Below are positions 3,881 to 31,863 of a stretch of 31,863 nt of DNA, piece after piece. Every line of letters begins with the position of its first letter. The stretch's first letter is position 1. The translations under genes and the position numbers were made by a program. Origin of the DNA: a virus; IMG/VR virus record IMGVR_UViG_3300028837_001164, positions 1-31,863 of that record; one strand, given 5' to 3'. The notes below the pieces were generated by a model, which made no database searches, was not told the origin of the DNA, and saw nothing but the letters and a program-made list of their open reading frames with translations.

Positions 3881-4789
3881 TCAAATTCTATCTCCTGGGC
3901 TTAACCTTTTATGAGCTTCCCTGGCTCTCTCACTAGCCCTTGATTTTGCATATCTACTTAGCATCTTTCGGCTTTTCCAACCGGCGATTTGCATTAGGTC
4001 GCCTTCTGCACCCTCACTGGCAAGCCAAATATGAACGAAAGTATGTCGAAACAAGTGCGTATAAACTTCTCCAATACCGGCTTGTGCTGCCCTATTCCTG
4101 ACTATTTGATATATCCCCGAACCAGTCATCGAGCCAGCCTTGCCAAGCCACAATTTAGGCAGTAAGGCTTGGGGGTGCAGGGCACGAATGCGAAGGTATC
4201 GGTCAATATCCCTTGTTGCCTTTCTACCAAAGGGAACAATGCGAATCCTTGCTCCCTTGCCCATAACGGTTGCTGTTTGAGCATCCAAGTCAACATCTTC
4301 CATTTTTAACCCTGCTAATTCTGCCCGCCTTAAACCAGTATCAATCAAGAGCCGTAATATGGCTGTATCTCGGCGGGCAAAGAAGTCTTTGCCTTCACAC
4401 ACTTTTAGAATTGCCCTAACATCCTCAATCGCTAATGGCTCTGGTGTGTATTCTGGTATTGTGGGGGGCTTCATCTTTTGCATCGGGGATTCTTTAATTT
4501 CGCCTTCATCTACTAACCACTTGAAGTAGCGATTAAGAGCACGATAACGATTATTGGCGGTTGCTGGCTTCCACTTAGCTAATAGCTCATTTATAAAATC
4601 TTGTATTTGCCTACGAGTGATTTCAGATGGAGTAGCAATTACTTCCTTTCGGGCAAGGAATTTAATAAACTGTCTTACGGATTCGCCGTATGTCTCAATG
4701 GTTCGGTCAGAGCGATTTTCAGCCCTTAGCCCTCTCAGAAATGAGTCCAGTAACAGTTGATGTTCTACGGCTAGAAGGTGAATCTCCAT
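3881..4789 (-). CDS. int: tyrosine-recombinase phage integrase
   Basis: A 302-aa site-specific recombinase for integration and excision, of normal family length. Residues about 9-95 form the SAM-like core-binding domain ([17 protein letters not shown]). Residues about 118-290 form the catalytic domain, with R154 in [10 protein letters not shown]178 in [13 protein letters not shown]245-x-x-R248 in HLFRHTF, W271 at the usual His/Trp position, and nucleophile Y280 in LSRYAKS. All catalytic positions are present. It lies 105 nt from the 3' end of tRNA-Gly and points away from it, the usual arrangement when a tRNA 3' end is the attachment site. It has its own likely promoter and is probably read separately from the early operon. 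Confidence 0.93.
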
Positions 4790-4893: not shown

Positions 4894-4965
4894 AGCGGGA
4901 GAGGGGATTCGAACCCCCGACACCCTGCTTGGAAGGCAGGAACTCTACCACTGAGTTACTCCCGC
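4894..4965 (-). tRNA. tRNA-Gly (anticodon TCC)
   Basis: A full cloverleaf can be drawn. Acceptor GCGGGAG (4965-4959) pairs with CTCCCGC (4901-4895). The D-arm is CTC-AGTGGTA-GAG, the anticodon stem is CCTGC/GCAGG around loop CTTCCAA (anticodon TCC), and the T-arm has loop TTCGAAT. The 3' CCA is not encoded (TTTCC follows). It is intact, so it is either a host gene used as the integration target and kept whole by the phage, or a phage-carried copy. The integrase lies on its 3' side, as expected for tRNA-targeting phages. Confidence 0.95.
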
Positions 4966-15609: not shown

Positions 15610-16329
15610 TTACCTCCTTTTACACAAAACATATAAATGTGTGCCTAGATAATAGAGATGTGTGCAGTCCCTAGTTATGCGGTCTATCTCCATGAAGTCC
15701 CGAAGTAGTCTCTCTTGAACCTCCACAGACTTGAAAAGCACTATTCCGTTAAGGATATAGGGAATGTCCCCCCTCTTCTTGATTACATCAAAACCCTGGA
15801 GTTCTAATTCGTCCAGGAATGATGGGGGCGCATAGCCCCGAACATGGATTACGCCGTCAATATATCCTCCTAAGCCGTTCGGTGTCGTTATAAGCAGATA
15901 GCCCTCGGGTTTTAATACCCTTCTAATCTCTTGAAAGGTGGCGTCCGCATCAGGCACATGCTCAATCACTTCCCTGCAAATAACAACATCAAAGGTCTGT
16001 TCCTTGAACGGTAGGTTTGCAACATCAGCCCCTATAATCTTTTTCTCAGGCTGTGCGATGAGGTCGGTCCTGACAATTCGCCCATTGATTGACTCAAGCA
16101 ATTCATCCTCTACCCATTCTCTTGAGCCAACGGACAGGACATCTTTCCCTTCGCACAAATCGCCCAGCATCTCAAGGCAGATGCGGTTTCGGTTATGGCA
16201 ATACCACAAATCAGTCTGGTAAGAAGGCCTTGTAGTGTTTGCCCAGCTTTTTACACTGGCTTTGGCGTAGCCACTATAGAGTTCTATGGCATCGCCCGTT
16301 TCCCTAAACCTATCTGCGACTTCTTGCAT
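15610..16329 (-). CDS. class I SAM-dependent methyltransferase
   Basis: 239 aa. Motif I DVLSVGSREWVED (about 63-75, a variant of the glycine loop), acidic residue D89 after strand 2 (IVRTDL), motif II/IV ADVANLPFKEQTFDVVICRE (about 101-120), VIEHVPDADATFQEI, then VLKPEGYLLITTPN. This is the layout of Methyltransf_11-type enzymes acting on small molecules, sugars or lipids rather than of DNA methylases (no NPPY/DPPY). It overlaps the glycosyltransferase by 20 nt, so the pair probably acts together, for example to make or cap a glycan on the capsid or the cell surface. The target is not visible. Confidence 0.85.
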   Translation of the reverse strand: MQEVADRFRETGDAIELYSGYAKASVKSWANTTRPSYQTDLWYCHNRNRICLEMLGDLCEGKDVLSVGSREWVEDELLESINGRIVRTDLIAQPEKKIIGADVANLPFKEQTFDVVICREVIEHVPDADATFQEIRRVLKPEGYLLITTPNGLGGYIDGVIHVRGYAPPSFLDELELQGFDVIKKRGDIPYILNGIVLFKSVEVQERLLRDFMEIDRITRDCTHLYYLGTHLYVLCKRR

Positions 16330-17500
16330 ATTTATCTTTTCCTTTATGCTTTTTCCTGGGCATCTGTATCATCTTCTCGATTTCCGCAATGACAGGTTTC
16401 CAGTATTTCTCCATCACAACGGGAATATCGTATTCCATCGCCTTCTCCCTGGCTGCTATCTTCCTCTCTGCGAGCTTGCCCGATTTCTTTTCCTGGTAAG
16501 CCTCCTCAAGATATTCCACGATTTCGTCAGGGTCAGCTCTTCCTTCCCAGGATGATTGCTCGTCAAACTCGGGTATCATTCTCTTGAGAATCCATCCCCC
16601 ACCACATAGTTCAGGCTGTGCCGTGTTGTTGGAAACAATGACAGGAACCCCAGCCGACTGTGCTTCTATGGTCGGTATTCCGAATCCCTCTCCCTTTGAG
16701 TTGCTCAAATACACATCGAGCGAGTTGTACATGTTGTTCATAGTTGGGGGAGGGATGCCGGTGAGCTTCATCTCCACCATAGAGGGAAAGCGAGTTACAT
16801 CTTGAATCATCAGGTTTTCCCGCAATGCCTGGAGATTACGCCCCCTTGGTTCTGAAGGGTCCGTGTGACAGTACATCATTACGTCATCGTGGTATCTCTT
16901 GAACTTGCTTAATGCAAGAAACGCAGATGTCCAGTCCTTTCTTTCGCGGACATTCGTGCCTACCTTGCCTATGACGAACTTATCAGTCCAGCCTACATTT
17001 TCCCTTTGTATCTGGCGTATATCTAAATTAGGGTAATAGGCCGTGCAGTCAATCATGTGCGGAGCATAGAAGCACTTAAGTTTCAGGCGCTTCATTTCCT
17101 TTTCCCCAAACTTGGACATGGCAATCGGCCTGTAAATCCCGGGATGCTTTTTAAGAATATTGTAAACTCCAGGTGGCATGGGTTCGTGGTCAATCGGAGT
17201 CCAGGGAAACCATTTGCAGTTTTCTGATTGCATCCCGAGAATCCAGACATCAACCAATGTAATTAGGCAGTCAGCCTTGAAGTGGTTATAGATTCTCTCC
17301 GCCCAGTTTGCTCCATAGTCTCCTCCGGGGTTGGGGTAAATAGGTATATCATTCCAGTAAATAATGCCACCGTCCAAACCATAATAGGCAAAGATGGCAA
17401 CTGTGTGCCCGAGCCCCCGTAACTCCAATGCTAGTTGTGCTGGTTGAACTCCATATCCGGTGTGACAAAATGGTGAATTACCAGTAAGTAGGATTCTCAT
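16310..17500 (-). CDS. GT-B glycosyltransferase, family GT4-like
   Basis: 396 aa. The N-terminal Rossmann half starts MRILLTGNSPFCHTGYGVQP (G-rich acceptor loop). The C-terminal half has KFVIGKVGTNVRERKDWTSA, then SLDVYLSNSKGEGFGIPTIE, containing the family's E-x7-E nucleotide-sugar motif (E271 ... E279), followed by AQSAGVPVIVSN. It transfers a sugar from a nucleotide-sugar donor; the acceptor is unknown. It lies directly after the coat gene, with the methyltransferase overlapping its end, so modification of virion proteins or of the host surface during the late phase is likely. The C-terminus is strongly basic (RKKHKGKDKYARSRR), possibly for membrane or nucleic-acid contact. Confidence 0.88.
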   Translation of the reverse strand: MRILLTGNSPFCHTGYGVQPAQLALELRGLGHTVAIFAYYGLDGGIIYWNDIPIYPNPGGDYGANWAERIYNHFKADCLITLVDVWILGMQSENCKWFPWTPIDHEPMPPGVYNILKKHPGIYRPIAMSKFGEKEMKRLKLKCFYAPHMIDCTAYYPNLDIRQIQRENVGWTDKFVIGKVGTNVRERKDWTSAFLALSKFKRYHDDVMMYCHTDPSEPRGRNLQALRENLMIQDVTRFPSMVEMKLTGIPPPTMNNMYNSLDVYLSNSKGEGFGIPTIEAQSAGVPVIVSNNTAQPELCGGGWILKRMIPEFDEQSSWEGRADPDEIVEYLEEAYQEKKSGKLAERKIAAREKAMEYDIPVVMEKYWKPVIAEIEKMIQMPRKKHKGKDKYARSRR

Positions 17501-17587: not shown

Positions 17588-18700
17588 TCAGTCGCACAGT
17601 CTGGCAGCTAGTTCCTTGTCCAGAGTTTTCACTCCGAAGAGGATGTCTACCGAGATGCGGTTTGCCTTAGCAACAGTGTCTCCATCGAGAGCTACACGGC
17701 AGGAAATGCCCTTGTAGTTCTGGGTACTGCAATTCACTCCGCCGATATAAGGTTCCAGTGGTGCAGAAACAAGAGCAAAGGCGTTCTTATGTAAGGCCAG
17801 ATTGACCTTGCCTGCAGCCTGAAAGGTAACAACGGCAGTGGTAAGTATTGCGGCATCCAAGGGTGGAGTAAAGGTAATGTCAACTTCAGCAGTTGCATCG
17901 GCTAGGACAGTGCTACCAGTTACAATTAGGTAGCCCCTATCACTACCGACTACCTTGAAGACATCGCCAGCAGCAACGGCACCTACGGTTCCACCTCCGT
18001 CAAGCGTGGCAGCCGTGGCACCAGCAGTGGCAGCACCCTTGAAAGCAAGCGTGTCATCGTTGCAGTTGCTTGCCCAGGTCGGCACATTCTGGGACATGTA
18101 ATAGTCAGCACCCAGCACACGCCCAATGCGGTACTCGTCGATGGTGAGGGACTTGCCCCTCTTGTCGGCATGAAGTATCGCATCGAGGGCAGCGTATTTC
18201 GCCTGGGTGACAGGATGCAAAACTACCCGTCTTTCGGTAATAGGACATTTCTGAATGTCCAGTTGTGCCATCAGATTAGCCAAGTCGCCAACGACCGGGG
18301 TGCCGCTAACCGGAGTGTGTCCAGCCACAGTCTTGTAGATTTCACTGAAGATAATCTCATCTACATTCTGGGCGTGCTCACGCATCATCGGTTGTAGCAC
18401 CTGTTCTGAAAAGCTCACGAGGTCCAGCGACATTTCCTGTGAGGTTATGTGCGCCGTGATGTCGTAAAACTTGTTCAGAATAACCTGAACGCTCGACTCG
18501 ACTATTTCCTGGGCAGCGACAGTTGTTGAAAAGGCACTTGCCTCGAATGTCGCTGGCTTGCGAATTGTAACCGTTGCCCCTACCTTCTTGTACTCCTTAG
18601 AGTAATCCCGGTGGACAAGGTTAGCCATGACTAATTCCTTCTCCAGCACCAACAGACCTTCTTTCGCTATGATGGATGGAGTTAAAAGTGTCTGAGTCAT
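17588..18700 (-). CDS. major capsid protein, P22 coat-like
   Basis: 370 aa beginning MTQTLLTPSIIAKEGLLVLE, then MANLVHRDYSKEYKKVGATV and TIRKPATFEA. The N-terminal arm and the 'NLV.RDY..E..K.G.TV.IRKP..F.A' signature match the P22 gene-5 coat family, with an HK97-type fold. The segment about 218-300 (FKGAATAGATAATLDGGGTV ... ITFTPPLDAAI) is a beta-rich stretch likely inserted in the core. NLALHKNAFALVSAPLEP near the end is the usual 'h+nAf.l....l' strand. It forms the icosahedral shell and lies directly after the scaffold gene. P22-type coats are usual in podoviruses. Confidence 0.9.
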   Translation of the reverse strand: MTQTLLTPSIIAKEGLLVLEKELVMANLVHRDYSKEYKKVGATVTIRKPATFEASAFSTTVAAQEIVESSVQVILNKFYDITAHITSQEMSLDLVSFSEQVLQPMMREHAQNVDEIIFSEIYKTVAGHTPVSGTPVVGDLANLMAQLDIQKCPITERRVVLHPVTQAKYAALDAILHADKRGKSLTIDEYRIGRVLGADYYMSQNVPTWASNCNDDTLAFKGAATAGATAATLDGGGTVGAVAAGDVFKVVGSDRGYLIVTGSTVLADATAEVDITFTPPLDAAILTTAVVTFQAAGKVNLALHKNAFALVSAPLEPYIGGVNCSTQNYKGISCRVALDGDTVAKANRISVDILFGVKTLDKELAARLCD

Positions 18701-20886: not shown

Positions 20887-22017
20887 CTAACGCCTGGTAT
20901 TCTTGCCAGAGGTCATAGTATTGGCCTCTCCATGCCTGTCTTCATCAACTATGCCTAGCTTGGCAAGTTCGTTCTCTATCTCGTTTGTGATATTCAATCT
21001 TGTGGGCAATGGGAATCCCAGGAACTCATACCATGCCCCCTTCTTTTCATTAAGCTGGTCTATGTATTCTCTGCCTCCCTTTGTGGCATAAATACCCCGC
21101 GTCAAGGCGGTCAGCCATTCGTCAGGGTGGACTTCAAACAACTGTTTTCCTCTAACATCAGTCCATTCCCCATGCACTAAAGCATCTACAGCATCGAACA
21201 TCCTGTTAATCTGGGTCCCACCAAGAACATGATACCGAGTAGCCCATTGCCTCAAGTCTGTCCAGTTGTCATATTTGAGAACATCGTCTATTGCCCCTTT
21301 GAGGTCGTTCATATACTGAAGTGGCATAGGCAAATACCAGGGATTGTTAGAATCCATGCCAGCACCCATCAGACTAAAGAAGGGGATAAACGAGCTCAGG
21401 CGCCAGGGCTTGCGGTTGATAAACTTATCAGCCACCATGTTAATAACCACCATAGCAGCGAACCAGGTCAAAAGCATTTTTACCCTATTTTGAATGGTAG
21501 CCTGCCCTTCTGCCGATGTCGCCGATATAGTCTCATAAGCCCCTGCTTTGCCTACCAATTTACGCACACCGATTAAGTTAAGTTCCCTTACTGTGTTGAA
21601 AACCTCAAGCGAGAATGTCTGGAAGGGGAAGAGTGTGCCGACTTCCCTATTCCGCAGAATCCCCGGTAAATTCTCCAAGTTATACATAGATTGGGTTTTA
21701 GCACCACCCTCTGAGGCATATTCCCACAAGGCTCTTCCCTTATATCCTAGTTTCTGCCCATGAAAGTAGGCAGCCCTTATAGAAACTCCAGTCAACATAT
21801 TCTCAATCGTATTCGTCAGAAAGTTGGCGATGTTTTCTACTTTATCAAGTGTAGAACCTTCCCATGCCAAGTTCTTTTCGAGCCTAGCACCAATATCCTG
21901 ATAAGCAACCTTCCCACCGCGCCTTCCTTTGATAATCGAGGAGTAGGCATTTTGCCTTACCTGGCGATGAACTGAAGGAACTAACAGGTAATCCAGCCCT
22001 CGTATTGTGTTTACCAT
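20887..22017 (-). CDS. C-terminal part of the giant virion protein (frame 2)
   Basis: 376 aa from an ATG with no ribosome binding site. The same frame is open upstream to a TGA at 22090-22092 and reads RYFVQTSSIVLTTTRYG just before this ATG. That looks like continuing protein, not leader. Visible text: RQNAYSSIIKGRRGGKVAYQ, GGAKTQSMYNLENLPGILR, VGTLFPFQTFSLEVFNTVRE, a hydrophobic stretch MLLTWFAAMVVINMVA, and PLQYMNDLKGAIDDVLKYDN. From memory these motifs belong to the end of very large phage virion proteins. Best read as the second half of the 26122 gene, now out of frame by +1. A separately translated protein is the alternative. Confidence 0.6.
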   Translation of the reverse strand: MVNTIRGLDYLLVPSVHRQVRQNAYSSIIKGRRGGKVAYQDIGARLEKNLAWEGSTLDKVENIANFLTNTIENMLTGVSIRAAYFHGQKLGYKGRALWEYASEGGAKTQSMYNLENLPGILRNREVGTLFPFQTFSLEVFNTVRELNLIGVRKLVGKAGAYETISATSAEGQATIQNRVKMLLTWFAAMVVINMVADKFINRKPWRLSSFIPFFSLMGAGMDSNNPWYLPMPLQYMNDLKGAIDDVLKYDNWTDLRQWATRYHVLGGTQINRMFDAVDALVHGEWTDVRGKQLFEVHPDEWLTALTRGIYATKGGREYIDQLNEKKGAWYEFLGFPLPTRLNITNEIENELAKLGIVDEDRHGEANTMTSGKNTRR

Positions 22018-25000
22018 CCCGTACCGGGTAGTTGTTAGGACTATTGACGAGGTTTGAACAAAGTATCTTGCCGTTCTGCACGATGTTGGTCATAAAGAGG
22101 TCTTTACCAGCCGTTACAGAGTAGTCATACATAAGCTGGACTAAATCACGCTTCTTGATATAATCGGCTAATCCACCCTTGCGAGCCTCAGCACGGGGGT
22201 TAAATGGTGCATCAGGCTTAATATAGTCGGGCATGGGAACTGACTGCATCATTATATCGGGACGCTTATTCCTCCCGAATAACATCGCCCAGAGGTTAGT
22301 GTCTGTAACCCACTGCCGGTAGTTTCGCCTGTATGGGATTGTTTCCTGATTCCTTTTTGTTCTAGCTCGGTTCTGAATATCAAGCATATTGTCGAAGAAG
22401 TGCCTGGCTTCCTTCGCAAAGTCAATAATGTTTTGCTGGGTTTGTGAGTCGAATCCCTTAACAAGTGCAGCGATTTCAGGTATGTCTCTCATTAACTCCT
22501 GTGCCGTTTGCATTGACTCTACTTGCCCGATGTATTCAATCACATCACCAGCAGCTTGCCTCGCCTTTCCCATCCCAAATCTAGTTAAACCATATTTCTC
22601 AGCCAGTTCGTGAACTTTTATCTTTGTAGTATCAACAAACTGAAGATAGGATAGATAAGTCCTTTGTGTCGGCCAGAGGATATGCTGTTGGGCTGCTCCC
22701 GCAAATCTGCCTCCATCTACAGCCTGAAGAAGTCGAATCGTGTCCATCAGCATCCCAGATGGTAAGCTGACATCCTGGAAGAAAGGATACTCTGCAAAGT
22801 CTGTAGAGACATAAAACCCACTATCCCTTACGGCGGGTATTAACTTGCCCCCTTTTGTCTTACGCAGAGCCATGCCTAGATGAACAGCATCGTTAATGGT
22901 TAGCCTTTCCCCACCCTTGAGTTTCCGTATTAGTCCATCAAAAAAGTCAACGGCTTGTGTGAGCCTGGATATTTCAGATTCAATGACTGCTCGCTCCTCC
23001 GGTGATTCATATTTTTGCCGAGTTAAGTATGCAATCTCCTCCTCGCCAAGTTTCTGTAACTCCACGACCTCAGCGATATTCGCCCTAACTTCATCGCTTA
23101 ACGCCTGAAGTTTCAGCTCATCATACTCGGGCATCTTGGCGATATAGTCATCAATAACACCCTCTTGAAGATAAGCGGTGGCAGCTACGTCTAGTTCGTT
23201 ATTGGGAGTCGCATCATAGAACTCCCTAGCCAGTTCAATGTTCCCTACCTCTTCGCTTTTGATATGGTCAGGATGGCGGACTGTGTTGCGGGGAGTAGGT
23301 TCAACAGCTTCAACTTCGGGTGCAGCTTCAAACCTTGCCTCGGCATCTTGGATTAAAGATTTAAGCTCAGTAACTCTTCGCTCAGTCCTGGCTATTTGCT
23401 CTATTCGATTGACGAGCTCCTGCTCACCCATGTTGAAGTGTTCAGCAAGTTCGTCAATGATGTATTCCCACCGCACATTGCCAGCCTTGTCAAATGCTCC
23501 GGGCTTTAACTCCCTTCCCATTAACAAGTATCTTGCCTTCTCTGGGGTTAAGGTTTCAGGCATTTTCCCTTCAACAAGCACTGAGGTTATCTTGTATTTA
23601 CGAGTAACCTTCTTGCCCTTCCTAGTATAAGTTATTTCCTTGCCAGTGTATGTCGCCACCGGGTCAGTTCTCAACCATTCCTGAGCGCCATCTAATTCGG
23701 CTTGCAATTCATCAAGGGCTATACCGACTTCAGCCTTAGTCGTAACCTTCTCAACAATCTCCCTCATTACCTCTATGCGAGGTTGCGAAGCCATCTCCCT
23801 GCTTATCGCATCAGCCTCACTGCTGCTAAAAATCCCCTTCTCACTCGCCCAGAAAGCAAATATCTTCTGTATTTCGGAGTTCTTAGACCATCTGAATAGA
23901 GCAGATGTTTTGCCTATCCCTGTAAACTGATTATTGATAAATCGAGCAAAGTCATAGACTGTGTAATTGTTAAAGTTCTCCTTACCACCCTTGAAACTCT
24001 CTAGCTGTGTTTTAACTTCTTGGGGTAGTTTGTTGTAATTAAGTCCCAGTTCTCCTACTGTCATTTCGGTATCGGCGATATTGCCGATGTTAAACATTGA
24101 GTTCTGTTTAGCCTGTTCGGATTCCTGGACTTCCCCAACGATTTTCTCAACTAATGCCTTGCCTTCGGTTGTTCCGGCAACGGCATCCAGTCCAGCTAAT
24201 TCAGATGCTTCAGGTGATTTCCCCTCTTCTATGGCTTCAAGTTTGGCTGTATCAAAAATCTCAGTTAACCCCGGAGTGAGGTTATTTTTTATCCGGGTTT
24301 GAATCACGGTAAAGACATCACCTGCTCCACCCAGTCCAAAGCCCATCACGAAGCCAAGCGATATAGCTTGCTTCATCTCATCGTCTAACGCAAGTTCCTC
24401 TCCAAGTGCCTGACGGATAAACCAATCTTGGAAAAACTCCTCTCCTGCCTCAGATAAGCCTACAATTATCGGCTTCCCTGCAATTATCGCAACTTTAATG
24501 AAGGGACTGGCTATCTTAGCAGGTCCAGGAGCAAAGGCCAGGAAAAACTCGGCAGCATCCATTCCCATCAAAAGCATATTCTTATTAAATACGCTATCCG
24601 CAGCTTCATGAGCTTCTTCCGGTGAAAACCCTTGAGCTAACGCTTGGTCATAGGCTCCACCGGCCTCTAGCGCACTCTCAAGGGGTCTTGATAAACCAGC
24701 AGCAGCAATAGAACCCAATATTACCTGCCCTAAATGTCCTAGCCCTATCGCACCTGCAATGCTTACCCCAGCATAACCTCCTATTATCGCGGCAGGTATA
24801 AGAGCGAGTGTGAATGGTAAAGCTCGCGGTAACTGACCTGTCCAGAAGTTAGCATGAGTCATTCCCTGCCAATCTAAAGGCGGGGTAACTCTTTGATACT
24901 TTAGTCCTTCTTGGGATATTGTTTTACCAAGACCTTCAGCTCCAAGCCAGTTAAGGGCAGAACCAAAAGTGTTAATCATATCGCCCCAGCCAGCTATGAA

Positions 25001-26122
25001 CTGCGCACCAAAGCTAGATGGCAGTTCTGCACCTTCTAAGAGTGATTCCCAATAGGCGTACTTGGTTTCATTTGCCTGGAGTTCCCTGAGATACTCCGCA
25101 TTGAACGGGTCTAATTTAATCCCTATCTGTTCCAGTTCCTCCGGTGTCAATCTCAGATAGATAGTTGGGACTTCACCTGTTCCTTCAATTATTTCCTTTT
25201 GATAATCGGGTATAAACTCGCTTTCGAGCAATCCTCTATGAATTATATCCAGCACGATAAGTTGCTGTTCTGTCCGCACTGGTGTAAGAAACCATGTATG
25301 AGAGCGAACTGTCTCGCTAATACTTTTATCCCAGGGAGAAGGTTCAGGCAAGCCGAGAGTTTCAGGCGTTGTCCACTCTACGCCCGCTATGCCCTCAAAA
25401 AGCATCGCTATATCTTCATCAGTTATTTCAGGTGCTAGGATTCGTAGTAATGCCTCGGTGTCTTCAGTCCGCCCTATTTCCCTTATATCGGCAAGGAATC
25501 CCTCCGGGTCAGATTCGATATAAGCTGTAATCTCCTCAATATCCTGCTCGGGAAACACTTTACCAAAGACCTGCTCTGTTTCAAGTTGTTCCTGTTCTCT
25601 TTCCTGATACCAGCCCCAAACATCTAGCTGCCCGCCCGCGGCTTGATATTCTTGATATGCAATCTTCCCTTCTTCCGTTAAGTCCTCTATGGTTGGAATC
25701 GCTATCTCTGGTGGAGCAAATCCCCCCGTTGGTGGTGATAACTGAGCCTGTAAATCGGCCTGAGATACTCTTTCACCAGATGGGGAAATGTAGTAATTAT
25801 CTTCCGTAATCTCCCATTTCTGAGGGGTAATAAAACTTGAGGTAAAACCACCGTTTCCTTCTATCGGGGTAAGTTTGAGCATCCAGCCTTCCTGTAATCC
25901 CAAGCCCATCTCAGCAGCCTCATTAGCCGTAAAGAACATTGGCTGTGTCGGAAAGGTAGTCGTCAACCGCCTCTGTGAAATAGCCTCAGTTAGCTGGGGA
26001 TACATTTCCCTGACACCTTTCAGGGAAGTATCATATTGAGAGAATAAACGCCCAATCTTAATATCCTTTGCCTGACGGAACTGCCTCAGCAAGTCCTCTT
26101 CGTTTAGATTAAATCCATTCAT
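21884..26122 (-). CDS. giant virion/ejection-type protein, first part
   Basis: 1412 aa, the largest gene here. N-terminal about 430 residues: acidic, helical (LNEEDLLRQFRQAKDIKIGR). Residues about 430-480: a long Gly/Ala-rich hydrophobic stretch (LPFTLALIPAAIIGGYAGVS ... GQVILGSIAAAGL) able to enter a membrane. Then mixed helical domains with long Glu/Lys-rich segments. Size, place between portal and scaffold, and the hydrophobic region fit an internal or ejected virion protein of a short-tailed phage; no tape-measure coiled coil or lytic-transglycosylase motif is seen. The last about 45 residues (NNYPVRDGKHNTRAGLPVSS) have low-quality coding character and are probably read in the wrong frame, because the real continuation is in the overlapping frame. 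Start coupled to the gene before it (ATGA). Confidence 0.65.
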   Translation of the reverse strand: MNGFNLNEEDLLRQFRQAKDIKIGRLFSQYDTSLKGVREMYPQLTEAISQRRLTTTFPTQPMFFTANEAAEMGLGLQEGWMLKLTPIEGNGGFTSSFITPQKWEITEDNYYISPSGERVSQADLQAQLSPPTGGFAPPEIAIPTIEDLTEEGKIAYQEYQAAGGQLDVWGWYQEREQEQLETEQVFGKVFPEQDIEEITAYIESDPEGFLADIREIGRTEDTEALLRILAPEITDEDIAMLFEGIAGVEWTTPETLGLPEPSPWDKSISETVRSHTWFLTPVRTEQQLIVLDIIHRGLLESEFIPDYQKEIIEGTGEVPTIYLRLTPEELEQIGIKLDPFNAEYLRELQANETKYAYWESLLEGAELPSSFGAQFIAGWGDMINTFGSALNWLGAEGLGKTISQEGLKYQRVTPPLDWQGMTHANFWTGQLPRALPFTLALIPAAIIGGYAGVSIAGAIGLGHLGQVILGSIAAAGLSRPLESALEAGGAYDQALAQGFSPEEAHEAADSVFNKNMLLMGMDAAEFFLAFAPGPAKIASPFIKVAIIAGKPIIVGLSEAGEEFFQDWFIRQALGEELALDDEMKQAISLGFVMGFGLGGAGDVFTVIQTRIKNNLTPGLTEIFDTAKLEAIEEGKSPEASELAGLDAVAGTTEGKALVEKIVGEVQESEQAKQNSMFNIGNIADTEMTVGELGLNYNKLPQEVKTQLESFKGGKENFNNYTVYDFARFINNQFTGIGKTSALFRWSKNSEIQKIFAFWASEKGIFSSSEADAISREMASQPRIEVMREIVEKVTTKAEVGIALDELQAELDGAQEWLRTDPVATYTGKEITYTRKGKKVTRKYKITSVLVEGKMPETLTPEKARYLLMGRELKPGAFDKAGNVRWEYIIDELAEHFNMGEQELVNRIEQIARTERRVTELKSLIQDAEARFEAAPEVEAVEPTPRNTVRHPDHIKSEEVGNIELAREFYDATPNNELDVAATAYLQEGVIDDYIAKMPEYDELKLQALSDEVRANIAEVVELQKLGEEEIAYLTRQKYESPEERAVIESEISRLTQAVDFFDGLIRKLKGGERLTINDAVHLGMALRKTKGGKLIPAVRDSGFYVSTDFAEYPFFQDVSLPSGMLMDTIRLLQAVDGGRFAGAAQQHILWPTQRTYLSYLQFVDTTKIKVHELAEKYGLTRFGMGKARQAAGDVIEYIGQVESMQTAQELMRDIPEIAALVKGFDSQTQQNIIDFAKEARHFFDNMLDIQNRARTKRNQETIPYRRNYRQWVTDTNLWAMLFGRNKRPDIMMQSVPMPDYIKPDAPFNPRAEARKGGLADYIKKRDLVQLMYDYSVTAGKDLFMTNIVQNGKILCSNLVNSPNNYPVRDGKHNTRAGLPVSSFSSSPGKAKCLLLDYQRKARWEGCLSGYWC

Positions 26123-28251: not shown

Positions 28252-29424
28252 TTAGAACTGCCAGACCTCGGCCTCGCTAGGTTCTGTAAAGTCGTGAGAT
28301 GCAACAGGGTACCTCCTGGCGTCCATGCCATGTGACCAAACATGCGAGGTTTTATCAGTTAGTCTGCCAGTAGTCTTATCCTTAATGTAACGAAAGTTTC
28401 TCTGTTCCTTGATGCAATTTATACTTCCCTTAGTCCAATACTGATAAAATTGATTTACCCTCTGGATGCCAAACCCAACACTCCCTTTACCCTTCACTGC
28501 TTCAATCACATTAAAGCCTGCATCCCTTAGCTCCTGGGCGCTCTTAGGTTCGCTGGGGTCAGGATAGATGGGTTCTTTGCCAATGCCAGCCAACCGCATT
28601 TTCCTTGCTACCTGGTCATTAGTGAGCCCTGTCTTGTCGTAGAATATCTCTTGTGAGTAGAGTTTATCCCCCAGGACGACATTCTTAACTAGCACTGTCG
28701 GGTCTACTGCAAAGCCAAAGTCCAGCCCATAGGCAACCTCACCCGTAGGGAGACTATCTACTTGCTCAAAATTAGGGTAGACTAGGCCTTCAATCTTGCC
28801 TATCAGCCCCAGCCCATAGATGTTCCACCAGTTAGGGTCTTTGTCCCGATACGACTCAATCTCAGCAGCCTTTGTAGCGGGGATAACATCTAAGGCATCA
28901 AGATAAGTCGAGTGGTCATAAGCATTGATATCTTCCTCTGTCCAGTTCTCATGAGCCCAGAACTCACCAACCGGGTTCCAGTCGAGGATAGTAAATAACT
29001 CCGTCCTAATGTCTAACGCCCTGGCGGTCTCCCAGGGTATATTATTGGCCTCATTGATGAACAGGATATGCCGTCGTGGTCCCCTTACCTTACTATCATC
29101 ATCAGCACTGAAAAACAGGGTTTTGCCGTTCCAGTCAGGACGGCTATATATATGGTCTGTCTTGTTGTAGAAGGGTGATGTTTCCTTATCTTCCCCCAGG
29201 ATATTGAAGAAGTCTCTGATGCAGCCCTGTTTTAAGTGAGGCAGGGATTCAGACACGATGCTTATATCAAGGGGAATCTCGGACTTCTCGGCGATAGCCT
29301 GGAGCGCTTGTAATGCTGAGTAAGTCTTGCTGCTCCATGTCCCACCCTCTAGTTTAATCCGTCTCTTGCCCTGAGTCCACGCCTGTAGAATAGATTTGAA
29401 TACCTTGGTGGTTCTTATATCCAT
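28252..29424 (-). CDS. terL: terminase large subunit
   Basis: 390 aa, DNA-packaging motor. ATPase domain: Walker A-type GGTWSSKT at 27-34, a deviant P-loop common in terminases. Walker B HILFINEAN at 119-127 has catalytic E125, and coupling motif ILDWNPVGEFW is at 146-156. Nuclease domain (RNase H fold): D235 in YGLDFGFAVDPT, D289 in IYPDPSEPKS, D368 in SHGMDARRY, the expected metal-binding Asp triad. The order and spacing fit the PBSX/Terminase_3 type. Its start lies inside the small-subunit gene (71-nt overlap), with AAGG 5 nt before the ATG. Confidence 0.93.
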   Translation of the reverse strand: MDIRTTKVFKSILQAWTQGKRRIKLEGGTWSSKTYSALQALQAIAEKSEIPLDISIVSESLPHLKQGCIRDFFNILGEDKETSPFYNKTDHIYSRPDWNGKTLFFSADDDSKVRGPRRHILFINEANNIPWETARALDIRTELFTILDWNPVGEFWAHENWTEEDINAYDHSTYLDALDVIPATKAAEIESYRDKDPNWWNIYGLGLIGKIEGLVYPNFEQVDSLPTGEVAYGLDFGFAVDPTVLVKNVVLGDKLYSQEIFYDKTGLTNDQVARKMRLAGIGKEPIYPDPSEPKSAQELRDAGFNVIEAVKGKGSVGFGIQRVNQFYQYWTKGSINCIKEQRNFRYIKDKTTGRLTDKTSHVWSHGMDARRYPVASHDFTEPSEAEVWQF

Positions 29425-29992
29425 CTAACCTTGTTCTCTCGCCTACCCTAGCCAGTAAGTCCTTTGTCTCGTTATCTATTACATAGACATTTACTTGACG
29501 GTCAATGTTGTTCTGAATGAGCGACCCCTCAGTATAGAGCTTGTCAATCTTGTTCAGTAAGTCTATGGCTTGAATGGGATTGTGTAGCTTAACCGTAGTG
29601 TAAACAGTCGGCTTTGCCCCTTTATCATTGTATTCTGTCCGTGAGCGTATCTCTTGAATAGCTCCAGTCATAGGCACTTCTGGCCCTAGATTCACCCATG
29701 AGCCGTCCTGTCCTAGCTCCATGAAATCAGTCAGTCTTGCCCGGGCAATCTCGGTTAGTCTTTCCTTGCGCTCTTGAACATTCATCACAGCAGCGCTTTC
29801 CGTCTTTTCTCGGAGTTCCGCTAACCTTGCTTGAACCTTAGTTGTTTTCTCCATTCGGCAAGCATTACTATCAATGATTGCCGGAGCATATTTACTAGAA
29901 TATCCAGCCTTTATCCATGCTTCCCTTTGAGATAGACCTTCAAAGAGAAAAAGGGCAAATCTATCTTGCTTTTGTGTTAGTCGTGTCCTCAT
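29354..29992 (-). CDS. terS: terminase small subunit
   Basis: 212 aa. N-terminal LTQKQDRFALFLFEGLSQRE, AWIKAGYSSKYAPA is the Terminase_2 signature (LT.KQ..F...... .EA...AGYS), containing the DNA-binding helix-turn-helix; it recognises the packaging start site and forms a ring. A central coiled segment (KVQARLAELREKTESAA, VQERKERLTEIARARLTDF) is the oligomerisation part. GAGGAG lies 4 nt before the ATG. Confidence 0.9.
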   Translation of the reverse strand: MRTRLTQKQDRFALFLFEGLSQREAWIKAGYSSKYAPAIIDSNACRMEKTTKVQARLAELREKTESAAVMNVQERKERLTEIARARLTDFMELGQDGSWVNLGPEVPMTGAIQEIRSRTEYNDKGAKPTVYTTVKLHNPIQAIDLLNKIDKLYTEGSLIQNNIDRQVNVYVIDNETKDLLARVGERTRLDGYKNHQGIQIYSTGVDSGQETD

Positions 29993-30068
29993 CTTGCTCC
30001 TCAGTAGTATTCTCCTCTGCCTCTGTTATACTGTCTCTAGTCCTTGTAAAGTTATCGTTCCATTCCAT
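29961..30068 (-). CDS. 35-aa acidic peptide overlapping terS
   Basis: MEWNDNFTRTRDSITEAEEN followed by TTEEQDEDTTNTKAR. GGAG lies 7 nt before the ATG. It starts 1 nt after the upstream stop and overlaps the terS start by 32 nt; its own sequence supplies the terS ribosome binding site. Probably disordered. It may serve mainly to couple translation. Confidence 0.5.
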   Translation of the reverse strand: MEWNDNFTRTRDSITEAEENTTEEQDEDTTNTKAR

Positions 30069-30069
30069 G

Positions 30070-30348
30070 TTAAGCTCCGAAGGTTATGTAGAAGCCGGCT
30101 ATAACAAGCCCTCCCCAGGCCAGTCTCCCAATCCCCATGCCTATCTTGTAATACCACGCCTCTCTCGCAAGGATGGCGTAGAAGTCAGTGACCTTATATT
30201 TATCTTCCGTCTCCTGGATAGTGGGTATCTTCTCGGCTTTACTGAGGGCGAGTCCATCACCCAGGCCAGAGACAATCATGTGCCATTCCGCCCAAGTTAA
30301 GAGCAATCCTCTCAAAGCCCCTAAAAAGTCTCTGAAGCTGAAACTCAT
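30070..30348 (-). CDS. 92-aa membrane-associated protein of the lysis region
   Basis: A soluble N-terminal part (FSFRDFLGALRGLLLTWAEW; KIPTIQETEDKYKVTDFYAI) and one C-terminal hydrophobic segment (IGRLAWGGLVIAGFYITFGA). Its ATG overlaps the stop of the holin-like gene (ATGA). No catalytic residues of known endolysins or spanins are seen. Possibly a lysis accessory protein. Confidence 0.6.
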   Translation of the reverse strand: MSFSFRDFLGALRGLLLTWAEWHMIVSGLGDGLALSKAEKIPTIQETEDKYKVTDFYAILAREAWYYKIGMGIGRLAWGGLVIAGFYITFGA

Positions 30349-30593
30349 TTACCCTCTTTGATACCAGCCACAATCTTGTCAACTAGCTTCTGACTATTAT
30401 CGACGCTTGTGGCCTTGATGTGCTGCACAGTCCTATCGCCGAACCACCAAAGGATGCAGGTAGCAGCCAGGGCCAGGAACCACTGCGGTGCGTCAATCCC
30501 CTCGACGACAACCTGGGCGATTACGGCAGCAAAGATAATACTGATTGCCGGCCTCGCTATTGCTCGGATGATTTGAACAATCGGATTCTCCAT
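30345..30593 (-). CDS. holin-like membrane protein, first late gene
   Basis: 82 aa with two or three hydrophobic segments (AISIIFAAVIAQVVVEGI; WFLALAATCILWWFGDRTV) and a charged tail (KLVDKIVAGIKEGK). A short loop and the WWFGDR motif near the second helix are usual in three-helix phage holins. Ribosome binding site CAGGAGG just before the ATG. First gene after the late promoter and leader terminator. Confidence 0.7.
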   Translation of the reverse strand: MENPIVQIIRAIARPAISIIFAAVIAQVVVEGIDAPQWFLALAATCILWWFGDRTVQHIKATSVDNSQKLVDKIVAGIKEGK

Positions 30594-30609
30594 AAAACCT
30601 CCTGAAATG

Positions 30610-30634
30610 AAAAAACCACCCTGAAGGTGGCTCT
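30610..30634 (-). terminator. leader terminator between late promoter and late operon
   Basis: On the minus strand: AGAGCCACC-TTCAG-GGTGGTTTTTT. The stem CCACC/GGTGG is extended to 9 bp by A-U and G-U pairs and runs into six Us. It lies about 30 nt after the expected transcription start and ahead of the holin-like gene. Confidence 0.75.
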
Positions 30635-30669
30635 AAAATGACTTGTGGGCGTTCTACTCCCTCACACCT

Positions 30670-30698
30670 AGTCTATCACTAGCCAAAATTCCTGTCAA
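30670..30698 (-). promoter_or_regulatory. late promoter
   Basis: TTGACA (30698-30693), 17-nt spacer, TAGACT (30675-30670) on the minus strand. It lies in the only sizeable gap of the right arm (207 nt). Perfect -35, near-consensus -10. The sequence TTTGACAGGA is shared with the early promoter at 3802-3831. Confidence 0.7.
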
Positions 30699-30745
30699 AT
30701 TAAAGCTAAAACGGGAGTATGAATTTCCTCTCCTGGGAGAAGCGG

Positions 30746-30802
30746 TGCGTGTTTTTCCTAAACCCGTAGCTAATTTCCCCCCCTGCTCTCCTGCGTGTTT
30801 TT
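30746..30802. repeat. two copies of an 11-bp motif upstream of the late promoter
   Basis: TGCGTGTTTTT occurs at 30746-30756 and 30792-30802, 46 bp apart in direct orientation, between the regulator gene and the promoter. Possible binding sites for the adjacent regulator; the right copy overlaps the regulator's stop codon. Confidence 0.35.
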
Positions 30803-31220
30803 ATAACCTGGGGGTCTCTCTCCAGCCATTTTGTATCCACTCACTGTAATTAGTTCTCTTGCGTGCCTTACCAGCCATATATCTCATTGCCCTCTTAATA
30901 CGCCTGCCCACCTTTTTATAGGGGATGCCAAATATCTTTGCGATTTTATCCTCAGTATATTGTTTATAGTACCGACAGACACACATATCACCATCCCGTC
31001 CAACACTCGCTATTCTGTCATCCATCTCAGCTTTTATCAGACTAATCATTTCAAAGTCTGCATGATGGCTAGTGTTATTGTATATTATCGTATCGTCAGT
31101 GGTAGAAAACGGCCAGTGCCCATCGCTTATAGAGTCCCACGCTTCGGGGTCTAACAGCCATCTTATTTGCCATTGGGAATACCAAATCTGCCAGGGGTAA
31201 GGGTAGTAGTCATCACTCAT
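30801..31220 (-). CDS. late transcription regulator, sigma-region-4-like HTH
   Basis: 139 aa. The N-terminal part is aromatic and acidic (MSDDYYPYPWQIWYSQWQIR). Residues 58-124 form a helical DNA-binding domain: EMISLIKAEMDDRIASVG, then YTEDKIAKIFGIPYKKVGRR and IKRAMRYMAG, the pattern of a sigma region-4 or ArpU/Q-like helix-turn-helix (..eIA.i.gip...V.r.i..A). The last gene before the late promoter, the usual site of a late activator or antiterminator. Ribosome binding site AAGGAGACGG. Whether it works by activation or antitermination cannot be read from the sequence. Confidence 0.7.
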   Translation of the reverse strand: MSDDYYPYPWQIWYSQWQIRWLLDPEAWDSISDGHWPFSTTDDTIIYNNTSHHADFEMISLIKAEMDDRIASVGRDGDMCVCRYYKQYTEDKIAKIFGIPYKKVGRRIKRAMRYMAGKARKRTNYSEWIQNGWRETPRL

Positions 31221-31223
31221 TTA

Positions 31224-31727
31224 CTACCGTCTCCTTATCATCCCCTTATGAAGGGTTATATCCACACCGCAGCGAGGGCAGAATAGATATTCTCCACTCT
31301 CCCCTTCTGTTAACCTATGCCCTAGCCCTAATCGTAGTTCGTGATATGGTGCGTTCTTGGCGAGTTCCTTGATATCATCGTCAAGCTGCCCTTTCTTAGC
31401 CCGGGGAAGTAAAAGACAAGCCTTTGCCACGCCGATTTCCAGCACTTCCTCTTTAGTCAAAAGTTGTGTCGCCACCAATCGGCTTATATCTATCAACCTC
31501 ATTACCCATGAATAACTGCCGATTCCCAAAAGCTCAATAAAATCCTTGAATGATTCGTGGTGCTCACTCCATAAAGCCCTGTCCTGATTATCAGCCAATA
31601 GCCCACCCAGCTCCAGGAATCGAACCTTTATATCCTTGCAGCAATCCGCAATTAAAAACTCGCTCTGTTCTGCCGGTGTTAGCCCTATATCAATGGTTAC
31701 TATTTTCCCTTCACCTATCGTTTCCAT
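31224..31727 (-). CDS. helical phage protein with C-terminal zinc knuckle
   Basis: 167 aa. A helical core (CKDIKVRFLELGGLLADNQD, FKDFIELLGIGSYSWVMRLI) resembles proteins with a DUF3102/ParB-N-like helical domain found in phage early regions, followed by VLEIGVAKACLLLPRAKKGQ. The C-terminal YLFCPRCGVDI adds one CxxC. Coupled to the regulator gene: only 3 nt apart. Regulatory or partition-like role possible. Confidence 0.65.
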   Translation of the reverse strand: METIGEGKIVTIDIGLTPAEQSEFLIADCCKDIKVRFLELGGLLADNQDRALWSEHHESFKDFIELLGIGSYSWVMRLIDISRLVATQLLTKEEVLEIGVAKACLLLPRAKKGQLDDDIKELAKNAPYHELRLGLGHRLTEGESGEYLFCPRCGVDITLHKGMIRRR

Positions 31728-31859
31728 TTATCCTAATACCAGAACGTATAACCAAATTAAGAGCCCCAAATCTACGGCAAGCAGCACACATATCCCCTTC
31801 TCTGATTTGCCCATCCCTTTCCACCGTTTATTAATCTCTTCCCATTGCAATTTTTTCAT
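31728..31859 (-). CDS. 43-aa single-helix membrane peptide
   Basis: MKKLQWEEINKRWKGMGKSE then one hydrophobic helix (ICVLLAVDLGLLIWLYVLVL). Its stop directly abuts the next start. The start ATG is 4 nt from the window's right end, so its ribosome binding site is not visible. Unknown function. Confidence 0.5.
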   Translation of the reverse strand: MKKLQWEEINKRWKGMGKSEKGICVLLAVDLGLLIWLYVLVLG

Positions 31860-31863
31860 TTTT

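Follow-up and report, generated by a model that had tools for sequence, protein, structure and literature searches.

Gene order and control elements of the late region

The window, the whole stretch of DNA analyzed here, comprises 31,863 bases of viral DNA in one contig, and all elements of the proposed late gate lie on its minus strand, in the order 139-amino-acid (aa) HTH ORF, promoter, hairpin with six U residues, ribosome site, and late operon. The late operon comprises an 82-aa ORF, genes for the small and large terminase subunits (TerS and TerL), and capsid and tail genes. The features are as follows.

30801..31220, minus strand: candidate antiterminator of 139 aa, with weak sigma70_r4 and Q-like matches, from a family of 26 loci upstream of TerL
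30792..30802, no strand assigned: 11-bp direct repeat TGCGTGTTTTT, second copy, overlapping the regulator stop codon; not conserved in relatives
30746..30756, no strand assigned: 11-bp direct repeat TGCGTGTTTTT, first copy; not conserved in relatives
30693..30698, minus strand: −35 element TTGACA (consensus), from the promoter scan
30670..30678, minus strand: extended −10, TGA TAGACT, with TG just 5′ of the −10 TAGACT (30675-30670)
30648..30661, minus strand: initial transcribed region, GGG...AACGCC, the window version of TAYGC/NAYGCC, with a candidate promoter-proximal pause at C30651/G30650
30610..30634, minus strand: promoter-proximal intrinsic terminator, with hairpin at 30630-30616, A/U extension to 30634, and U6 at 30615-30610
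30345..30593, minus strand: first ORF of the late run, encoding 82 aa and preceded by AGGAGG, which follows closely on the U tract; an unknown phage family is matched weakly
30070..30348, minus strand: late ORF of 92 aa, unknown
29354..29992, minus strand: terminase small subunit (PF03592, 3.4e-12; phrog_51, 3.9e-25)
28252..29424, minus strand: terminase large subunit (phrog_2, 5.9e-29)
17588..18700, minus strand: major head protein, encoded further along in this late gene run (phrog_283, 3.3e-63)

The initial annotation had described an HTH protein, a sigma70-type promoter, a hairpin with six U residues about 30 nt past the start site, and a late operon, and each of these was recovered on the minus strand; the designation "late operon" is borne out by the TerS, TerL, major head protein, and tail genes that follow. 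The 82-aa product of the first late ORF is a possible small membrane or lysis protein.

The −35 and −10 elements are separated by a 17-nt spacer (promoter 30698-30670), and TTGACA-N17-TAGACT is the sole promoter match of at least 9 out of 12 positions within 29800-31863. Transcription is predicted to start near 30663, and from the hairpin to position 26000 neither a minus-strand promoter above chance level nor a better one was found. The terminator hairpin, CCACCTTCAGGGTGG (30630-30616), has a 6-bp stem followed by six T residues and begins ~30 nt past the predicted start, so that the terminated RNA would be ~50 nt long. Its energy is −12.1 kcal/mol including the A/U extension, and none of 200 shuffled sequences folded equally well. 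Shuffled DNA gives promoter and terminator counts at least as high as those of the window taken by itself, and the question of whether the elements are real therefore turned on conservation.

The two 11-bp repeats between the regulator gene and the promoter had been put forward as binding sites, but they were rejected as operators for want of conservation in relatives. The only other contig that shares them does not differ from the window over the 900 bp compared. Many relatives have a −35 element that overlaps the regulator stop codon or lies within ~30 bp of it, which leaves little or no room for such repeats.

Conservation of the promoter-terminator layout in related phages

When the window protein or individual family members served as queries, direct searches yielded little beyond the same contigs; the single-protein search with the window regulator returned only one contig, whose protein is identical, and a first scan of genome contigs with a single TerL gave no matches. 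Relatives were recruited via TerL (~110 distinct), and a profile search of their ORFs for the regulator identified 26 loci with a family member upstream of TerL, including the window and L178, a locus discussed below. The family members share 19 to 34% identity with the window regulator. One regulator alignment, A1, was discarded for the pattern scan as too diverged.

A promoter was found within 150 nt of the regulator stop in 18 of the 26 family members versus 49 of 533 control genes from the same contigs. A promoter together with a terminator just 3′ of the regulator was found in 12 of 26 members versus 2 of 533 control genes (p ~5e-16, a value that is optimistic, like all p-values given here, because related phages are not independent samples). 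These regulator-anchored counts are less biased than those made on the partly hand-assembled set of 31 leaders described below. They replaced a loose count of promoters and terminators upstream of TerL, which was noisy (30 forward, 16 reverse, and 14 shuffled). It is through conservation, not by counts in the window, that the arrangement exceeds chance. The comparison of leaders in related phages, which the initial annotation had proposed as a check, thus upholds its reading of a gate like lambda pR′-tR′ beside the regulator: the parts and their order are conserved across diverged relatives, in which hairpins and proteins have both diverged.

The TTGACA box overlaps the regulator stop codon in many relatives (e.g., L004, L006, L018, L124, and L178), while in L045, L058, L091, and L093 the promoter lies 0.8 to 1.8 kb downstream of the regulator, the promoter-terminator unit being placed before the late genes. 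The hairpins, mostly found 34 to 94 nt past the −10 box, differ completely in sequence among relatives; the retention of position without shared sequence speaks for selection acting on termination and against a neutral repeat inherited from a common ancestor. With the scan used, no simple terminator was detected within 100 nt in L019, L045, L046, L053, L057, L086, L121, L129, and L151. Long stretches of strongly structured-looking RNA without an Rfam match take the place of the short terminator in L046 (2592-2790) and L086 (1850-2260). A different HTH protein occupies the place of the regulator in L126 (3713-4114, plus strand; promoter at 4103), with the same promoter-hairpin layout; it was missed by the regulator profile and weakly matches a phage transcriptional regulator family.

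Probable host and hold-out loci

The closest cellular TerL matches are in Chloroflexota and Dehalococcoidia genomes. Because all of these genomes are metagenome assembled, the host assignment is probable, not certain: judging by these matches, the virus probably infects uncultured Dehalococcoidia-like bacteria. L178 lies in a Dehalococcoidales metagenome-assembled genome and has the regulator, the promoter, and the hairpin. As a hold-out test, loci were recruited by the regulator profile alone from 393 genomes of the class to which L178 belongs, and the regulator was found in 6 of them. In L267 (on a 1.52-Mb contig) and L272, a promoter and a hairpin again lie 3′ of the regulator, and these two loci are an independent confirmation of the layout. 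No promoter with hairpin was found 3′ of the regulator in the stretch read of L268, L269, and L270. In L268 (1162-1914), the regulator-like domain follows an N-terminal extension of ~110 residues with CxxC pairs, which is zinc-ribbon-like. Our search of the literature, covering open-licence papers, did not turn up a description of this kind of system for phages of Dehalococcoidia.

Sequence and predicted fold of the regulator

The resemblance to sigma region 4 in the initial annotation is reflected in a weak match of the HTH to Sigma70_r4_2 (8.6e-5; 22.6 bits, under the Pfam cut-off of 25.7 bits). It fits 21Q, which has a sigmaR4-like fold resembling sigmaR4 bound to anti-sigma (PMC6606751), and GafZ, whose HTH resembles that of a sigma factor and which controls a phage-like structural cluster through antitermination (PMC11150451). 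The AlphaFold2 model of the 139-aa protein (pLDDT 88) consists of two short N-terminal helices, a flexible loop (residues ~33 to 54, starting with a conserved GxWP), a long helix, and a C-terminal sigma-region-4-like HTH; the C terminus of the protein is basic. A structure search pointed to region 4 of ECF sigma factors, with 3hug reaching a probability of 1.00 for the HTH at a nonsignificant E value of 0.25. Only region 4-like similarity is seen, and sigma region 2, responsible for −10 recognition, is absent. A sequence profile search of the PDB returned no antiterminator. Compared with 21Q, AlpA, and GafZ, the protein as modeled appears much as a Q-type protein looks.

The antiterminators 21Q and QuuD are represented by PF06530 and phrog_79 and by PDB entries 6P18 and 6JNX. 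Lambda Q and YdfT fall in PF03589, and QuuD falls in PF06530, near 21Q. Neither the window protein nor its family matched PF03589 or phrog_127 (the lambda Q family), and hhalign gave a probability of 0.2% for the regulator family against lambda Q. A whole-domain match to PF06530 was not reached either, the best member (L042) scoring 17.6 bits against a cut-off of 26 and over the HTH part only. One family member matches phrog_79 (QuuD/21Q-type) at 9.8e-7, again over the HTH, and hhalign of the family against QuuD aligned 39 HTH columns only (89%). Full-length similarity of the family to any Q was not found. Judged by these searches, the regulator falls outside both Q families, with its resemblance to QuuD/21Q confined to the HTH, in keeping with the earlier view that it differs from known Q proteins. 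No described protein is a close relative of its family.

Approximately half of the family members (L004, L006, L008, L018, L028, L046, L061, L097, L122, L124, L151, and L178) appear to lack the first HTH helix and turn and retain the N-terminal part and the layout. A fold search with an HTH-less member gave no meaningful match. With the HTH missing in about half of the members, DNA recognition cannot be uniform across the family. Four conserved N-terminal cysteines, C-x2-C-x5-C...C, are present in the HTH-less members L004, L006, L008, L018, L097, and L124, where they possibly form a zinc site.

Promoters, a pause-like motif, and RNA structure in the leaders

We aligned 31 leaders on the −10 box. 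The −35 element is TTGACA in 29 of the 31 leaders, and the −10 box is TG-extended in 20. The leader promoters look strong, and a classical activator therefore appears unnecessary. The sequence TAYGC/NAYGCC, starting 14 to 21 nt past the −10 box, occurs in 21 of the 31 leaders versus 23 of 682 control promoters, which are the other promoters of the same contigs (p ~5e-21, indicative only, as are all p-values from this partly hand-assembled set). When the same offsets are applied to lambda DNA, the pR′ pause sequence TTCG begins at offset 19, matching the position of the leader motif; the pR′ pause itself lies at +16/+17. The window motif, GGGAGTAGAACGCC, reads AACGCC rather than TAYGC and has G at about −10 and C/G at −1/+1 (30651/30650). 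The conserved leader motif is a candidate pause site.

Promoters of Q and AlpA need a −10-like pause element (PMC6606751, PMC9371919), which is resembled by a second sequence, GACAAT/GACAGT, found 3′ of the −10 box in 8 of 31 leaders versus 2 of 681 controls. The window has no clear −10-like element just past its promoter. No element common to the leaders was recognized by eye in the spacer between −35 and −10, and conservation among the leaders between promoter and terminator is limited to the short motif. In three leaders, those of the window, L008, and L030, ACGCC and then AAGTCATTT are found between the motif and the terminator.

The leaders could alternatively act as RNA-based attenuators, in which termination depends on a leader peptide, on a competing RNA structure, or on an RNA that is bound, and the protein is dispensable or an N-like binder of leader RNA. 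Consistent with this, a 5′ stem (GGC...GCC) that pairs with the motif and precedes the terminator occurs in a subset of leaders and overall exceeds shuffled sequences (sum of 228 versus 172; 0/300), ATG is present in 14 of the 21 motifs, as in TATGCC, and in some cases follows a purine-rich stretch, and the leaders of L046 and L082 could both encode MPATRKG. However, over half of the leaders have a weak stem or none, and that of the window does not surpass shuffles; ACG is found in 7 of the 21 motifs, including that of the window, the ORFs that the leaders might encode are 2 to 194 codons long, and the leaders examined have no Rfam family match. With the stem restricted to a subset and ACG in one-third of the motifs, an RNA switch or a leader peptide could account for part of the family at most, and we consider attenuation of this kind unlikely. 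Leader-peptide attenuation was rejected as the main reading on account of the ACG motifs and the unconserved ORF lengths, as was a conserved 5′ hairpin for the whole family, which is real in a subset only and not in the window.

Proposed mechanism of late gene control

We propose, with a probability of about 0.7, that the late genes are controlled by Q/AlpA-like antitermination through a separate regulator family in Dehalococcoidia phages. The late operon would be transcribed from one strong, probably constitutive, host-type promoter. In the absence of the phage protein, RNA polymerase would make a leader of ~50 nt and stop at the promoter-proximal terminator. Once the 139-aa regulator has accumulated, it would join RNA polymerase at or just past the late promoter, probably while the polymerase is paused 12 to 16 nt into the transcript, and would render it terminator resistant, so that transcription continues past the leader terminator and along the long late operon. 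21Q, lambda Q, and AlpA act in this way. In this model the hairpin would terminate transcription in vivo, and the regulator would bind both promoter DNA and RNA polymerase and would cause readthrough of the leader terminator. Several observations count against the model: the lack of a clear −10-like element in the window and its AACGCC version of the motif, the family members without the HTH, the absence of full-length similarity to any Q, the leaders in which no simple terminator was detected within 100 nt, and the four loci with a promoter 0.8 to 1.8 kb from the regulator.

It is tentative, and to our mind somewhat doubtful, that a separate Q-like lineage rules late transcription in Dehalococcoidia phages and that about half of its members work without the DNA-binding HTH, so that they would have to be loaded via RNA polymerase, the paused transcript, or some other DNA contact.

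RinA and ArpU are thought to be late-promoter activators in Gram-positive phages. The regulator could likewise be a classical activator of the late promoter, with the hairpin merely ending early-operon transcripts or setting a basal level. Sigma region 4, which its HTH resembles, contacts −35 DNA, the hairpin could insulate the late genes from early read-through, and RinA of the staphylococcal phage phi11, described as a transcription activator (PMC9867676), provides a precedent. We nevertheless give this explanation a low probability: the promoters look strong and have no obvious need of an activator, even activated transcripts must pass the terminator because of its position 3′ of the start, and many family members are entirely without the HTH. 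Finally, the promoter and hairpin could produce a short independent phage RNA (6S-like or antisense), the late genes being driven from elsewhere, since a ~50-nt leader with a terminator at its 3′ end would make a stable small RNA and lambda also makes a terminated pR′ RNA, but this is very improbable given the lack of any better-than-chance minus-strand promoter from the hairpin to 26000, a ribosome site of the first late gene that almost abuts the U tract, and a promoter-to-terminator sequence that is unconserved apart from the short motif.

Comparison with known antiterminators

Q-type antitermination is understood in lambdoid phages and in a small number of proteobacterial relatives (AlpA and GafZ). 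If the antitermination model holds, phages of Chloroflexota use the same gate, made up of a strong promoter, a pause-like motif, an immediate terminator, and a sigmaR4-like partner, with an unrelated-looking protein, and this solution is either far more widespread than these examples or has arisen repeatedly. The HTH-less members could reveal which part is essential, DNA binding or a plug of the RNA exit channel, and the gate would offer an easy way of spotting late promoters in phages whose hosts are hardly ever cultured.

As in Q-type systems, the regulator gene of the window lies beside the late promoter, upstream of the structural genes, and an intrinsic terminator lies between that promoter and the first late gene. 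The 21Q/QuuD systems likewise have a terminator directly after the late promoter and a regulator gene immediately upstream, and their proteins have the sigmaR4-like fold with N-terminal helices that is predicted here, with the HTH register matching that of QuuD over 39 columns. In contrast to these, the window family scores under the Pfam cut-off, has no N-terminal similarity, and includes many members without the HTH; the hosts in the 21Q/QuuD systems are enterobacteria rather than the probable Dehalococcoidia-like hosts here, and the 6-bp direct-repeat QBE was not recognized in our leaders. Lambda Q at pR′-tR′ (PF03589, phrog_127) is alike in logic, in the order of elements, and in a motif at the offset of the +16/+17 pause, but it has no sequence similarity to the window family, its zinc finger is lacking in the window protein, and its leader is ~190 nt long versus ~50 nt here.

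AlpA has an N-terminal ring/loop and a C-terminal HTH and works through a sigma-dependent pause, with a terminator just before the first gene (PMC7969949, PMC9371919). AlpA of Pseudomonas aeruginosa, compared by description, is thus a Q-like antiterminator unrelated to Q in sequence, with a terminator placed as here and a pause of the kind proposed here, whereas it is chromosomal, controls a lysis programme, and has a binding element between −35 and −10 that was not identified in our leaders. GafZ of the Caulobacter gene transfer agent, also compared by description, resembles the system proposed here in its control of a structural cluster, its sigma-like HTH, and antitermination, and differs in working with GafY and IHF and in having its terminator 3′ of the first gene. 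The regulators are most aptly described as a new family of antiterminators of the known Q/AlpA/GafZ kind, AlpA and GafZ being compared by description; of the "new class" initially suggested, the novelty stands at the level of family and not of class.

Other genes of the window

Between TerL and the head gene lies an ORF of 1,412 aa without a PHROG match (21884-26122, minus strand). A glycosyltransferase-like gene (16310-17500, minus strand; phrog_2170, 2.3e-26) is found inside the structural cluster, and a tRNA gene (4894-4965, minus strand; Rfam RF00005, 69.9 bits) is located near one end of the contig.
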